64,000 nucleotides of DNA, taken from the NCBI GenBank assembly GCA_025463125.1, contig JAOAPX010000136.1, forward strand, positions 21,171 through 85,170. Direction: 5' to 3'. Source of the DNA: Acidobacteriota bacterium. Lineage in GTDB: Bacteria > Acidobacteriota > Blastocatellia > Pyrinomonadales > Pyrinomonadaceae. The notes below the pieces were generated by a model. The model had not been told where the DNA came from and did not search any database. It saw nothing but the letters and a program-made list of their open reading frames with translations. This document shows positions 44,076-49,395 of this stretch, one piece after another (the stretch's first letter is position 1; each line of letters starts with the position of its first letter). Made by a program: the position numbers and the translations under genes.

Positions 44076-44174
44076 AAAGCAATTGCCCGCGAAATACGCT
44101 GACCACACGGAAAAAGAAAGAAAAAATTCTAATCCTTTTTCGTTTGTTTCGTGTATTTCGCGGGCAATTGCTTT
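44076..44174. repeat. Perfect 22-bp inverted repeat at malic enzyme/ypdA junction (element B)
   Basis: Arms 44076-44097 and 44153-44174 are perfect 22-bp inverse complements containing GCAATTGCCCGCGAAATAC. Looser similarity runs inward (ACGGAAAAAG versus CTTTTTCG). CGCGAAATACGC is shared with element A at 8.7 kb. A T-run follows each arm, so bidirectional termination is plausible. Confidence 0.85.
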
Positions 44175-44237: not shown

Positions 44238-45230
44238 CTAAACCTGCGCCGCACTTTTTAAAAGCTTCTCGGCAATTTTCGGAATTATTTTTTTCGGAGT
44301 TTCGATCGCGCCGACGATATGGCGCGCTTCGGTAAAATGCCCGACGACGTAAACGCCCGAAACGTTCGTTTCAAATGTTTCTTCATTGTAAACCGGAACA
44401 ACGCCGTATTTTGATTTTCTGGTTTCGACGCCTAAGTTTTCCAGCATCGTCAAATCCGCATCCGAACCGATCAGCACGAAAACCACGTCATTCGGCAAAG
44501 TTTCAATTTCGCCGTTTTCGTCTTCCAGAACGATTTCGTTTTCCCGAATTTCTAAAACGCGCCCGAGAAAAAACAGCTCCAGACAATTTTTGCCGAGTTC
44601 TTTTTCAAGCGGCTGTTTCACCCAATGCTTGATACAGCCCTGTTTCGGGTCGGTTTCTTCCCAGTCTTTGCGAAATGTGGCGAGCGTTGACTTTGCGCCT
44701 TCCTGCGCGAGAAAAAGCGCCGCTTCGCCAGCCGAGTTTCCTCCGCCGACCACCAGAGCGTTTTTCTTTACCCACGGGTAAGTTTCGATGAAACGATGAT
44801 GAACCTTCGGCAAATCTTCGCCCGGAACGTTTAAGCGCCGCGGATACTGCATCGCGCCGATAGCGAACAGTATATTTTTCGTTTCATATTCGCCTTTATC
44901 GCTTTTTACCGAATAATGATTATTCTCAATTTTTTCGACCGATAGAACTTCTTCTTCGGTCTGAATATTTAAATTGTTTTCGAGCGTAAAACGCACATAA
45001 TAGGAAAGCAATTCTTCGCGCGTCGGTTTCTCGCGTGCGGGATGAAGCGTGTTTTCCTGAAGTTCGAGCTCATTAACGGTCGAAAAAACCGTCAAACCGA
45101 CCGGATACTTATAAACAGTATCGGCAATCAGACCTTTTTCAATTACAAGGTAATTTACACCGAGCTTTTGCGCTTCGAAAGCGGCGGAAATTCCCGCCGG
45201 ACCTGCGCCGATTATAATTAAATCAAACAT
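44238..45230 (-). CDS. ypdA: YpdA-family flavin disulfide reductase
   Basis: A 330-residue FAD/NAD(P) reductase. The first dinucleotide fold is LIIIGAGPAGISAAFEA and the second is ALVVGGGNSAGEAALFLAQ. It ends with VSGVYVVGHFTEARHIVGAI. Overall it matches YpdA (Bdr), the putative bacillithiol disulfide reductase, and lacks the CxxC of thioredoxin reductase. The YpdA-type segment GLTVFSTVNELELQENT is present. This points to bacillithiol or a similar low-molecular-weight thiol in the host, though no bsh gene is here. It is transcribed alone toward element B. Confidence 0.88.
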   Translation of the reverse strand: MFDLIIIGAGPAGISAAFEAQKLGVNYLVIEKGLIADTVYKYPVGLTVFSTVNELELQENTLHPAREKPTREELLSYYVRFTLENNLNIQTEEEVLSVEKIENNHYSVKSDKGEYETKNILFAIGAMQYPRRLNVPGEDLPKVHHRFIETYPWVKKNALVVGGGNSAGEAALFLAQEGAKSTLATFRKDWEETDPKQGCIKHWVKQPLEKELGKNCLELFFLGRVLEIRENEIVLEDENGEIETLPNDVVFVLIGSDADLTMLENLGVETRKSKYGVVPVYNEETFETNVSGVYVVGHFTEARHIVGAIETPKKIIPKIAEKLLKSAAQV

Positions 45231-45469
45231 TTGTCTTTTCTTTTAATTTTTCAGATTATCTTTTTAATGCGCTTTTAAACGATATAAAAAATAAAATCAA
45301 TAACAACCTTATCGACGAAACGCATCTTCAAATACTAAATTTTCGATAAAAAACGCGACGGATGCGTTCAGATTCTTAAAAAACTTTTCTAAATTAGAAT
45401 AAAGAATCCGCAAGCCTATTTCAATGCCAGTTTTTTTAAGCGCTTTCAGAATCGGCTAACTTCCCGGAG

Positions 45470-45740
45470 GACGAAAAAATACTGGAATGCTTTCAGGCAT
45501 TTTCCTGCCTGAAAAATCTTCCAATCTCCGGCTTTCCGCACTCAAAATCACGAGAAACAAAACATAAGATAAGCGTGACTGCCGGATAATTCGTCGTTGA
45601 AGAACCCGCCAATCCTTTTGACCCAAACGCTTGAAAAACTGGAAATAAACCGGTTATTGATATTTCTTAATAATTGGAACTGTTTTTCTCTATTCACTTT
45701 CGGCTTGAAAATGTTTGGCTGCATTTTCAAGCCTTTTTTG
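45470..45740 (+). ncRNA. Candidate structured small RNA
   Basis: No convincing gene is seen in 45231-46193. Around 45470-45540 a long imperfect hairpin can be drawn. CCGGAG pairs with CTCCGG, TGGAA with TTCCA, and TTTCAGGCA with TGCCTGAAA around a TTTTCC loop. The segment ends at a strong plus-strand terminator (45702-45739). This fits an unannotated small RNA, but the start is unknown and I recognise no 6S, tmRNA, RNase P or SRP RNA signature. The 60-codon minus frame inside it has no recognisable product. Confidence 0.35.
45702..45740 (+). terminator. Strong intrinsic terminator with no gene before it
   Basis: A perfect 12-bp stem GGCTTGAAAATG/CATTTTCAAGCC with an 8-nt loop is followed by TTTTTTG. 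The nearest upstream plus-strand gene ends at 44061, beyond the opposite-strand ypdA. So it must end an unannotated transcript. Confidence 0.85.
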
Positions 45741-45753
45741 TAATTTTTCGAAA

Positions 45754-45796
45754 TAAAAAAACGGAGCGTATACCACTAACGCTCCGTTTTTTTTTA
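45754..45796. terminator. Bidirectional intrinsic terminator
   Basis: A perfect 10-bp stem AACGGAGCGT/ACGCTCCGTT with a 9-nt loop is flanked by a seven-A run on the left and nine Ts on the right. It can work on both strands. Confidence 0.85.
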
Positions 45797-45799
45797 TTT

Positions 45800-46130
45800 A
45801 GGATCTGAAAATGAAACTGAATGATTCTAATACACGCCTGTTAAAGTGCAATCATTGTGCCACTACGCTCAAATTCTTTTTTCAAATTTTTATTTCGGAT
45901 GAATCCAAAGGCGCGAATCTGTTCGGATTTCAAAAAAACTATTTGAAATCATATATTTTTTATCCGCTTTCCAAACTGCCGGGTAATTCTTTTAGACCCA
46001 TTCAAAAATTCTTTGCCCGGCGAGAACAAATTTGGAACTTTTTATTTTTTCGTGCGTGTATCTAAATTAAGGAACTCCTCCTCGATCTTAATGTGAATTT
46101 TAGCCTGTTGTAATGACAGGCTTTTTTTTG
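45800..46130 (+). ncRNA. Second candidate small RNA ending in a terminator
   Basis: Between the bidirectional terminator and a third plus-strand terminator lies about 300 nt with a 9-bp stem GCCGGGTAA/TTTGCCCGGC near 45980-46020. An 84-codon frame (45811-46065) covers much of it, but its product (MKLNDSNTRLLKCNHCATT...) resembles nothing I know and is rich in Phe and Lys as AT-rich noncoding DNA would be. A small RNA or tiny mRNA is possible. Confidence 0.25.
46102..46130 (+). terminator. Intrinsic terminator before lipoprotein gene
   Basis: A 7-bp stem AGCCTGT/ACAGGCT with a 7-nt loop and eight Ts. It lies 64 bp before the next gene and again ends a transcript with no recognised gene. Confidence 0.8.
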
Positions 46131-46193
46131 TTTTATAGATTTGTTAAATAGTGTATAAATATCTGGAACTACCTTTAATATCTAATTTATAAA

Positions 46194-46733
46194 ATGAAAA
46201 AATTATCTTTAATGCTATTACCTGTCTTTTTTTCTTTCGGATGCGGGCAAACGATTGAAAAAAATGAAACGTCAGCGAATACGAAAACCGTAACATTCAA
46301 TTCCAGTACGAATAGCCAATCGACAGGAACGGTAAAAACTCCGTCGCCTTTAACAAACTTAAATCCGCAGAACAGCTCGGTCGAAGCGGCTCAGAAAAAA
46401 AAGCGTGACGTGTCATATTTCGAAAGCATTCAGTTCTTAAACAAAAAAATCGGCAAGACGGACAAAGGCGAAGACGGAATCGTCGGCGAGATAAAGAACG
46501 CCGGCAACAAAACCGTTAACACTTTGAGTATTCGCGCAATTTTCAGGAACGATGAGGGAAGAAAGATTTTTGAGACCGACTTCCCGGTTATATACCAGTC
46601 AGTTTCAAACGCCGATTCGAGCCGACCTTTAAAACCGAATGAAACGCGCAAATTCGCTTTCGATATTTACGACAAATCGAAAATAACGAATAATTTCGAG
46701 CTGCACGTGATGGAAGCCGAAACGGATAAATAA
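46194..46733 (+). CDS. Lipoprotein of unknown function
   Basis: A 179-residue protein with signal peptide MKKLSLMLLPVFFSFGC and lipobox FGC. A Ser/Thr/Asn-rich linker runs to about residue 75. A beta-rich domain of about 100 residues follows (DGIVGEIKNAGNKTVNTLSIRAIFRNDEGRKIFET ... LKPNETRKFAFDI). This resembles the FxLYD-like immunoglobulin-type domains of exported proteins, with the pattern of a conserved NAG/KT turn and a C-terminal LKPNE...F. It would sit on a membrane, facing the periplasm. Function unknown. Confidence 0.75.
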   Translation: MKKLSLMLLPVFFSFGCGQTIEKNETSANTKTVTFNSSTNSQSTGTVKTPSPLTNLNPQNSSVEAAQKKKRDVSYFESIQFLNKKIGKTDKGEDGIVGEIKNAGNKTVNTLSIRAIFRNDEGRKIFETDFPVIYQSVSNADSSRPLKPNETRKFAFDIYDKSKITNNFELHVMEAETDK

Positions 46734-46827: not shown

Positions 46828-49395
46828 TTATTTCATTTTCAGCATCGGATCGCCGAGCAGCGCCCAGGAAAGTCTGACGTCTCGCCCGGCATTAATCGTC
46901 GTTTTAGCATCATTTATCAAATCGCCGAGACGCGAGATATTTCCGGCGGCGATCTGGCTGTAAAAACGCGTTGCCATTATTTCCTGGATATCAGGCGTCG
47001 TTTTGCCGGTTGAAGACCACGCAGCCACCGCGCCGCCGCTGTTTGATTTAAGCAGCAGCTCGGACAAGCTGTCTTCGTCTGGCGAAATAAAATAACCGTT
47101 AAGACAGCTCAGCATCGAATAAACCGATAAATTATTCGCATTTGTTAATTGCGCCACGCTGGTTTTGCTGAAATAGCTTGAATGCGCCCAAACGCCGATG
47201 TTTCCGTGCCCGGAATAATTAATCAAAAACTTGCCGCTGTTCATTTCGTTGAGCAAAAGCGTCTGCGCATTGCCGCTTCCTCGATTAACGAAAGTTTTCG
47301 GCATCGATTCCGGCAGTTTAGCCGCGAGCCTGCGGCTTAATGCTTCGAAGTCATAACCGTCCGGCAGATCGCTGGCAAAAAGCGCGCCGCGCGATTGGGC
47401 GGTTGAAATATTGGATTCAAAGGTTTTAACTTTAGCCAGAGCATCGATTACGACTTGTCCGGTTCTTGCGGGAATTCTGCCGATGGCGATTTCCGCCAAA
47501 CCGTCGTCGTTAAAATCGGCTAAAGCGTCGTCGCTTCCGGTTTCTTCGTAAACCGTATCAATAAGCTTGGTCGGAACATAATTAAAATTGCCCAAACCTT
47601 TGTAATTACGTGAATCATACGATGAATCGCCGATCAAAAGAGCGTATTTCGGCGGAGTTTGCCAGTTATTCTTTGCGTATTGCAGAAAGCTTCGAATAGA
47701 CATCGAGCTCAAAACGCCGGAATTGAATTCATCGTATATATCTTCGACATCGACAACTTCAACCGTAATGCCCTGCGAGCGACGATATGACGCCCATATT
47801 TCAGCTTCGGTTAAAAAGTTTTTATGCGAAATTATAACCAGCTCGGCGTTATGAGCGGCGGTCGCGAGACTCGAAGGCGTGTTTGTCGTTATTGAAGCCG
47901 GAGTTAAAACCGCCGAGTTTTCGACCGCGTACATCACTCTGCCGCGATGCGCCGGAAGCGTCACGCCGAAACCGCCCGCGCTTTGCTGCGGTCTTAACCC
48001 GTTAATAATCACGGGGTTCTGCGAATCGGTCATATCGAAAACACGAATATTTGCCGAGGAAAAACCGGTCAGATTCGCCGCCTTGTAATTTTGCGTATAA
48101 AAAGCGAGTTCGTTTTGCTGAGCCGCGTAGCCGCGATTAAAGCTGACGCGAATGGATTCGAGCAGCGAAATTCCCATTACGCCCGTTAACTTTAAAGTGT
48201 TTGTTCCTTCGCGCAGCAATTGCGGCTGGATTCTATACTCTTTGCTCAAAGTCTGGAAACCGCTTCCGACAATCTGGTTAAGTTCCTGATCGTTCAGCAC
48301 AACCTTGATCTGATGCCCTGTCTGCGTTCCGCCTTGCAGGCTTAACTTAAATATCGCTTCCGCCGCGTTAAAATCGACCGCGCTTAAATTAAAGTTGATC
48401 GTTGCGCCGCTGTTGGTAATCGCTCTTCCAAAGAAATTTTCGTTTCCACCGTTTAATATCGAGTTGTGATAAACGGTTCGCTCTTTAAACACGAAAGACT
48501 GGTTATAGCTTCGCGTTAAGACCGTTCCGGCAAAAGAACGCAAAGTAGTCGATTTCATACGTTTACCGCTGCCCTGCCCGGCGACCAGATAGTAAAAACG
48601 CGTATCGCTTTCAGGCGTGTCGATTCCTCTGCCGTAAAACTCTATGTAATCGCCGTTTTCGCCGACGATGATCGATTGCTCGCTGCCGTTTGCAAACAAC
48701 TGCCATAAAGCGGGACTTACGCTTACGTCAAAACCAGCCGCTTGCAGTTCGGCGCGGGACACGCGGTATAAACCGTCTTTTTTAACGCCGATTTTTACGC
48801 CTTCCTGCCCGACGGCGAGCCGGTGCGCAAATTCATCCGCGACGGTTTCATATCCCGCGACTTCAGCCTGCAAATCTTTCGGCAGATTCAAATCGCTTTT
48901 CTCAATTTTTTGCTGCGAATTATTTCTGATTTTTGCGCCGAAAACGGAATCGCTTTTTAATGCGTCCGGCAAATTTTCCAACGGTTGCGGCAAAACTTCA
49001 TCGGAGACTCTTCTAAAGCTGTTCGTATCAACGCTTTCTATTACATAAACCGAATCCGAATCGCCGCCGTCATCGTAAAAACTATAAGTTTTACCGATTG
49101 CCTTTTCTTCGCCGGTTTGCAGGTAGGCGCCGCCGACAATTGAAGAATTAACCGAAACTTTTTCGCTGCCGGATACGCGGTAGATGTAAAATCCGAAATT
49201 ATTTGTTTCGTATTCGGTCTGCCATTGCAGGTAAACGCCTCGCCCGTCTGAGAAAGCATTTATGTACTGGTATTTTAATGAGGATTTTCGTGTCTTCGCA
49301 GTTTCCTTAAACGACTTTGATTTTTGAGCTTGTACTGATGAATTTATCAAAAAAGATAAAATGACAAAACAAAACATTATCATCAATTTTTTCAT
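46828..49395 (-). CDS. Gingipain-type C25 cysteine peptidase, exported
   Basis: An 855-residue exported protein. The signal peptide is MFCFVILSFLINSSVQAQ. Residues about 40-480 are beta-rich, with a carbohydrate- or jelly-roll-like region (GGTQTGHQIKVVLNDQEL). The C25 domain is about 500-855, with SIRSFLQYAKNNWQTPPKYALLIGDSSYDSRNY, an Asp-rich DDALADFNDDGLAEIAIGRIP (calcium-like loop), catalytic His730 in NYSGHGN and Cys764 in LSCLNGYF. It ends directly after the C25 domain (ALLGDPMLKMK), with no type IX sorting domain visible. The role is likely extracellular protein breakdown. Confidence 0.9.
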   Translation of the reverse strand: MKKLMIMFCFVILSFLINSSVQAQKSKSFKETAKTRKSSLKYQYINAFSDGRGVYLQWQTEYETNNFGFYIYRVSGSEKVSVNSSIVGGAYLQTGEEKAIGKTYSFYDDGGDSDSVYVIESVDTNSFRRVSDEVLPQPLENLPDALKSDSVFGAKIRNNSQQKIEKSDLNLPKDLQAEVAGYETVADEFAHRLAVGQEGVKIGVKKDGLYRVSRAELQAAGFDVSVSPALWQLFANGSEQSIIVGENGDYIEFYGRGIDTPESDTRFYYLVAGQGSGKRMKSTTLRSFAGTVLTRSYNQSFVFKERTVYHNSILNGGNENFFGRAITNSGATINFNLSAVDFNAAEAIFKLSLQGGTQTGHQIKVVLNDQELNQIVGSGFQTLSKEYRIQPQLLREGTNTLKLTGVMGISLLESIRVSFNRGYAAQQNELAFYTQNYKAANLTGFSSANIRVFDMTDSQNPVIINGLRPQQSAGGFGVTLPAHRGRVMYAVENSAVLTPASITTNTPSSLATAAHNAELVIISHKNFLTEAEIWASYRRSQGITVEVVDVEDIYDEFNSGVLSSMSIRSFLQYAKNNWQTPPKYALLIGDSSYDSRNYKGLGNFNYVPTKLIDTVYEETGSDDALADFNDDGLAEIAIGRIPARTGQVVIDALAKVKTFESNISTAQSRGALFASDLPDGYDFEALSRRLAAKLPESMPKTFVNRGSGNAQTLLLNEMNSGKFLINYSGHGNIGVWAHSSYFSKTSVAQLTNANNLSVYSMLSCLNGYFISPDEDSLSELLLKSNSGGAVAAWSSTGKTTPDIQEIMATRFYSQIAAGNISRLGDLINDAKTTINAGRDVRLSWALLGDPMLKMK

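Follow-up and report, generated by a model that had tools for sequence, protein, structure and literature searches.

Introduction

In enterobacteria, the envelope-stress ECF sigma factor sigma-E drives the short Hfq-type small RNAs (sRNAs) MicA and RybB, and the reading proposed here is of the same kind, although MicA and RybB use seeds directed at outer-membrane protein mRNAs rather than anti-Shine-Dalgarno (anti-SD) segments, and neither RNA has homology to the one discussed below. GsrN of Caulobacter, which depends on sigma-T/EcfG, likewise combines an ECF-type sigma promoter with an intrinsic terminator, and its ∼100 nt include a 5′ C-rich loop that pairs with G-rich mRNA sites, a further point of likeness to the reading proposed here (PMC5869019). 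GsrN differs in having an alphaproteobacterial EcfG promoter, in being a single gene and in activating katG (PMC5869019), whereas the Acidobacteriota RNA occurs several times in a genome and is preceded by a GNAAC/GCGTG promoter; no sequence relation between the two was found or is claimed. The CCUCCUCCC-loop sRNAs of Rhizobiales (SmelA075/SmelA099) are also small intergenic RNAs with an anti-SD motif, which they carry in hairpin loops, but there are three to four loops per RNA, compared with one or two CU-rich segments here, and come from another lineage (PMC3927594). In Bacillus, C-rich regions of RoxS, FsrA and CsfG pair with mRNA targets, though the promoters, chromosomal loci and phylum are different (PMC8216469). 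The RNA described here resembles the GsrN, Rhizobiales and Bacillus sRNAs in working principle, and homology is not claimed.

Acidobacteriota are among the commonest soil bacteria, yet few sRNAs are recorded for them (four annotated in the table of PMC9029176), and literature searches combining sRNAs with ECF factors in Acidobacteria turned up no earlier report. The locus considered here lies in a 64-kb window, meaning the whole stretch of DNA that was analyzed. Positions 46065–46129 are likely to be a stand-alone, ECF-driven, anti-SD, trans-acting sRNA belonging to a multi-copy Pyrinomonadaceae family.

Terminators and Coding Potential of the Region

The region comprises 963 intergenic bases (45231–46193) between a YpdA-like reductase gene on the minus strand and a lipoprotein-like ORF on the plus strand (Table 1). 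A sequence-only reading had placed three hairpin-plus-T-run terminators on the plus strand, and all three are present at those positions and are strong. A stricter terminator scan found exactly three on the plus strand of the region, compared with a mean of 0.27 and a maximum of 2 in 100 dinucleotide shuffles, in which three were never reached. A simpler consensus scan found 5 with 5.7 expected, and so no excess, because it is hairpin strength that discriminates. The second terminator is a palindrome with flanking A and T runs and is therefore able to stop transcription on either strand; the same palindrome also yields an inverted self-match in the DNA search of the genome itself.

The sequence-only reading had also seen no convincing plus-strand gene, which is borne out by codon usage, as none of the ORFs of at least 25 aa is gene-like. 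The best value in the region is 0.31 bits/codon (a 31-aa ORF) and the longest ORF (84 aa) reaches 0.05, compared with a mean of 0.68 and a minimum of 0.40 for real genes. The 84-aa ORF (45811–46065) was ruled out as a gene by this non-coding codon usage together with the lack of a Pfam match. No 6S, tmRNA, RNase P or SRP RNA had been recognized either, and Rfam agrees: at the gathering threshold the 64-kb window holds one tRNA only, outside the region, and in a permissive search all matches in the region were far under their gathering scores.

Two features were observed beside the region. An imperfect palindrome of ∼100 bases (78%) at 44076–44174, where the malic-enzyme and ypdA genes converge, is probably a shared terminator, and a gene for a large secreted peptidase C25 (gingipain-type) adjoins the region at 46828–49395 on the minus strand.

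Table 1. Features of the intergenic region and its neighbors (window coordinates).
Feature	Position	Strand	Details
YpdA-like FAD/NAD(P) disulfide reductase gene (left neighbor)	44238–45230	−	
Imperfect long hairpin / inverted repeat	45464–45536		Fold z = −3.3; no homologs; unsupported as RNA
First terminator	45702–45739	+	Hairpin 45702–45733 + T-run; −19.5 kcal/mol
Second terminator, bidirectional	45754–45796	both	−19.9 kcal/mol; minus-strand terminator call at 45757
ECF-type −35 element	46034–46042	+	GGAACTTTT; consensus G-N-AAC-TTTT
ECF-type −10 element	46054–46060	+	GCGTGTA, 15 nt after AAC; GCGTG in nearly all members, spacing constant
Predicted small RNA, ∼65 nt	46065–46129	+	TSS placed at ∼46065 ± 3 by the −10 position, 3′ end by the terminator
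Candidate 5′ stem-loop	46066–46092	+	AUUAAG (46066–46071) with CUUAAU (46087–46092), loop GAACUCCUCCUCGAU; read from sequence
Anti-SD segment, predicted seed	46075–46083	+	CUCCUCCUC; anti-SD enrichment in family
Third terminator, intrinsic, ends small RNA	46102–46129	+	Hairpin 46102–46122 + T8; AGCCUGUU...GACAGGCU + T-run
Orphan lipoprotein-like ORF, 179 aa (right neighbor)	46194–46733	+	Start 64 nt past third terminator

The Third Unit Belongs to a Multi-Copy Family

Searching the genome itself (G000) and 96 related genomes at the DNA level returned matches mostly at chance level, with a cluster on the third unit (query 797–905, window 46027–46135). The places in this cluster have a common architecture, consisting of GNAACTTTT, then GCGTG(TATCTA) 15 bases after AAC, and further on a CU-rich stretch followed by an intrinsic terminator. 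Covariance models built first from six members and then from seventeen were run on 162 genomes of the class, and 18 relatives of window 46030–46129 were found, all in two genera of Pyrinomonadaceae. Including the window copy there are 19 copies, ranging from one to five per genome: two in G000 and one in G001 within the genus of the window, and in the sister genus three in G006, one in G032, five in G045, two in G059, three in G100 and one each in G102 and G104. The window copy has E-values of 2.9e-16 and 1.8e-10 in the two models (R1 and R2), with the window copy among the sequences used to build both, and E-values of members partly reflect selection, since the models derive from these members and the members are themselves related. 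Members picked by the promoter pattern alone (G032, G006 C101 and G006 C109) carry CUCC motifs and terminators, neither of which was in the query.

Promoter, core and terminator are all common to the window copy, its paralogue in the same genome (G000_C12) and the sister-genus relatives, and the terminator stem is kept across members despite sequence changes. The proposal that orphan terminators mark unannotated RNAs is therefore well supported for the third, with these three elements conserved in 18 relatives, but the first and second have no comparative support. The ECF promoter and anti-SD motif of the third unit had been missed. The family of this predicted ∼65-base RNA, present in multiple copies in two genera of soil Acidobacteriota, appears to be previously undescribed.

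Weak model matches outside the two genera, in G049 and G039, are without the promoter and were ruled out. A third, G060:C12, was rejected as a family member, having the same promoter type but before a secreted protein; this site, in another family of the class (L187, 1530–1630, minus strand), is a possible regulon member, with the ECF promoter type ahead of the protein start. A marginal look-alike in a third genus (G110:C25, L080 ∼1500–1620), with GCAACCCTTT...GGCGTGA, CCCTCCTCT and a strong terminator, might extend the family. Around several of the G006 copies (L062, L063 and L064) there is a recurring terminator-like repeat, AAAAGCCGTGAGTT...CTCACGGCTTTT, which serves two of them as terminator.

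The genes 3′ of the copies differ and in several cases are oriented towards the RNA, for instance with genes on the opposite strand after G000_C12 (greA), G006_C101, G045_C17 and G045_C330. These differing, often opposite-facing neighbors indicate stand-alone RNAs and make a shared leader function unlikely. Some positions are kept, in that the G032, G059 and G104 copies lie upstream of a penicillin-acylase-like gene, and G000_C12 and G006_C101 are both beside greA and a phosphofructokinase-like gene, in opposite orientations (gene names assigned by eye). Conserved synteny of ypdA, RNA and lipoprotein was ruled out, as the lipoprotein is an orphan (no homologs of the 179-aa protein in 39 related genomes) and the ypdA loci of relatives are without the RNA. 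The unit is intergenic, has its own promoter and intrinsic terminator, contains no ORF and is conserved independently of its neighbors, all of which suggests a trans-acting sRNA.

Promoter Type and Candidate Regulators

When the members are aligned on AAC, positions 5–13 (G-N-AAC-TTTT) and 25–29 (GCGTG) are nearly invariant, with the first G, the first A and the C of the −35 element invariant in the 17 non-redundant members, and the spacer is varied in sequence and fixed in length. Two conserved blocks separated by a variable spacer suggest an ECF-sigma promoter. A promoter PWM built without the window copy scores 28.7 at 46030, compared with 17.0 for the runner-up in the 64 kb; shuffled windows do not exceed 15.8. 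Searching with a 3-mismatch promoter pattern gave no enrichment over the reversed control in most genomes and is therefore not counted in favor of a large regulon; the low-mismatch matches in genera g1 and g6 were the only ones pursued.

As would be expected for an ECF-sigma-dependent sRNA, the bipartite AAC/CGT promoter with its fixed spacing is also found upstream of ECF sigma genes. ECF-like region-4 matches number 17 in G000, 21 in G006 and 33 in G045. Across 30 ECF-sigma loci the PWM gave four matches of at least 17 (L202, 21.7; L207, 18.1; L203, 17.2; L208, 17.2), all of them on the strand of the sigma gene and 460–540 nt ahead of region 4, which is where the ECF gene starts; distance to region 4 was used as the measure because the motif-based ORF finder recognized only 5 of the 30 ECF genes. 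L207 (G000:C161, 963–1683) and L201 (G006:C39, 966–1686) hold orthologous ECF sigma genes that are SigW/RpoE-like by score, under the equivalog cut-offs, and in L201 the sigma gene is followed by a PDZ-containing gene, plausibly encoding an anti-sigma factor. At both of these loci GCAACCTTT...GCGTGA stands just upstream of the sigma gene, and before it lies a gene for a secreted protein, itself with a similar but weaker site. A second ECF sigma gene, in L202 (G000:C100, 462–2121), has an upstream promoter with a spacer one base shorter; downstream are a small membrane protein and, two genes down, a zf-HC2 protein that is a plausible candidate anti-sigma. The promoters of both ECFs are similar to that of the small RNA, with spacings of 15 and 14, and the ECFs of L207/L201 and L202 are candidate regulators of it.

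The Predicted RNA and its Proposed Mode of Action

The RNA contains a CUCC/CCUCC motif, the mark of the anti-SD, C-rich sRNA class. A 16S anti-SD 5-mer occurs in 15 of the 17 non-redundant members, with the strict 5-mer missing from the other two, compared with a mean of 6.0 and a maximum of 14 in 1000 shuffled sets, bearing in mind that the members are related and are not 17 independent events; sense SD 5-mers are found in four of the 17. Pairing of AUUAAG with CUUAAU would leave CUCCUCCUC of the window copy exposed, but a shorter AGGA/UCCU stem is preferred in the MFE fold. As the fold that exposes the loop is thus not the one predicted to be most stable, the 5′ structure of this copy is uncertain. 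The G032, G059 and G104 orthologues offer a clear long-stem version, an 11-pair stem whose loop holds CUCCUCC or CUCCCCC. With G059_C390 added as a fourth row, 97.7% of cells in this stem are paired, compared with 39–57% when the partner is slid. Conserved, covarying columns in relatives had been named as a check; covariation in the 5′ stem of these four sequences does not reach significance, being too sparse. G000 has an Hfq gene, as do 18 of the 20 genomes tested, and the predicted RNA ends in a U-rich terminator tail.

Sequence comparison shows a dispersed family with a common promoter type, enriched anti-SD motifs and a terminator, as well as the Hfq gene. That the RNA is transcribed, induced by stress, bound by Hfq and paired with SD sites of targets is inferred. 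Envelope or other stress would free the sigma factor from its anti-sigma, and the freed ECF sigma would drive transcription from the 46034–46060 promoter to the intrinsic terminator. The CU-rich segment would act as a mimic of the 16S rRNA 3′ end, so that the sRNA, probably with Hfq, could pair with target mRNAs at their Shine-Dalgarno regions, and translation would be blocked at the occupied sites.

Alternative Explanations

With the lipoprotein start so close behind the third terminator on the same strand, and an ECF promoter of related appearance lying directly ahead of a secreted protein in G060, the element could be a 5′ leader with an attenuator, in which the lipoprotein gene at 46194 is transcribed from the ECF promoter and the hairpin sets read-through. 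This is unlikely, however, given that the lipoprotein has no homolog in the 39 genomes while the RNA has 18 relatives, and that opposite-strand genes follow the paralogue and several further copies, as given above. Anti-SD mimicry in a multi-copy family would also suit an RNA that, instead of repressing mRNAs, acts as a sponge or decoy for 16S/SD-like sequence, for Hfq or for another sRNA, and Bacillus does have C-rich and G-rich sponge partners (PMC8216469). Yet neither a G-rich partner nor a protein-binding motif was identified, and the exposed C-rich motifs of studied sRNAs pair with G-rich or SD sites of mRNAs (PMC5869019; PMC3927594; PMC8216469), which makes such a role distinctly improbable. 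The copy number of 1 to 5, the dispersed loci and the short flanks common to three near-identical G100 copies are what a small mobile promoter-terminator cassette, spreading without regulatory function, would leave behind; but the promoter blocks and CUCC core are selectively conserved while the spacer is free, and this, together with the orthologous position in G032, G059 and G104 and the greA-side position in G000 and G006, makes such a cassette very hard to believe. The trans-acting sRNA reading is preferred over all three.

For the rest of the region the picture differs. The stems featured in the sequence-only reading (CCGGAG/CTCCGG, TGGAA/TTCCA and TTTCAGGCA/TGCCTGAAA) exist and fold better than chance (0 of 200 shuffles), but relatives of the 45465–45535 hairpin were detected neither in 97 genomes nor beside ypdA in 23 related loci, leaving it unsupported as RNA. 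Homologs of units 1 and 2, which end at the first and second terminators, were likewise sought in the 97 genomes and 23 ypdA loci, and none were found. Even within the genus, the flanking genes are only ∼77% identical in coding DNA, pointing to fast non-coding turnover, and missing homologs are therefore weak evidence against these units; the first and second terminators may end further short transcripts. It is conceivable, if doubtful, that segment 45427–45640 and the first terminator form a longer regulatory RNA of their own: 45400–45695 folds better than shuffles (z = −4.0) and the segment ends in a strong terminator, but the same relatives lack homologs, neither promoter type was matched and Rfam gave no match.

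Significance

The sibling sRNAs could form a lineage-specific set that serves a SigW/RpoE-like ECF stress response in Pyrinomonadaceae at the post-transcriptional level, with many mRNAs repressed at their Shine-Dalgarno sites, a proposal that is put forward tentatively. If true, this would be an ECF-sRNA circuit in Acidobacteriota that evolved independently of the proteobacterial ones, and it suggests that the pairing of an ECF sigma factor with an anti-SD sRNA has had more than one origin. With its recognizable stress promoter, seed and copy-number variation, the family would offer a testable entry to RNA-based stress control in this phylum.
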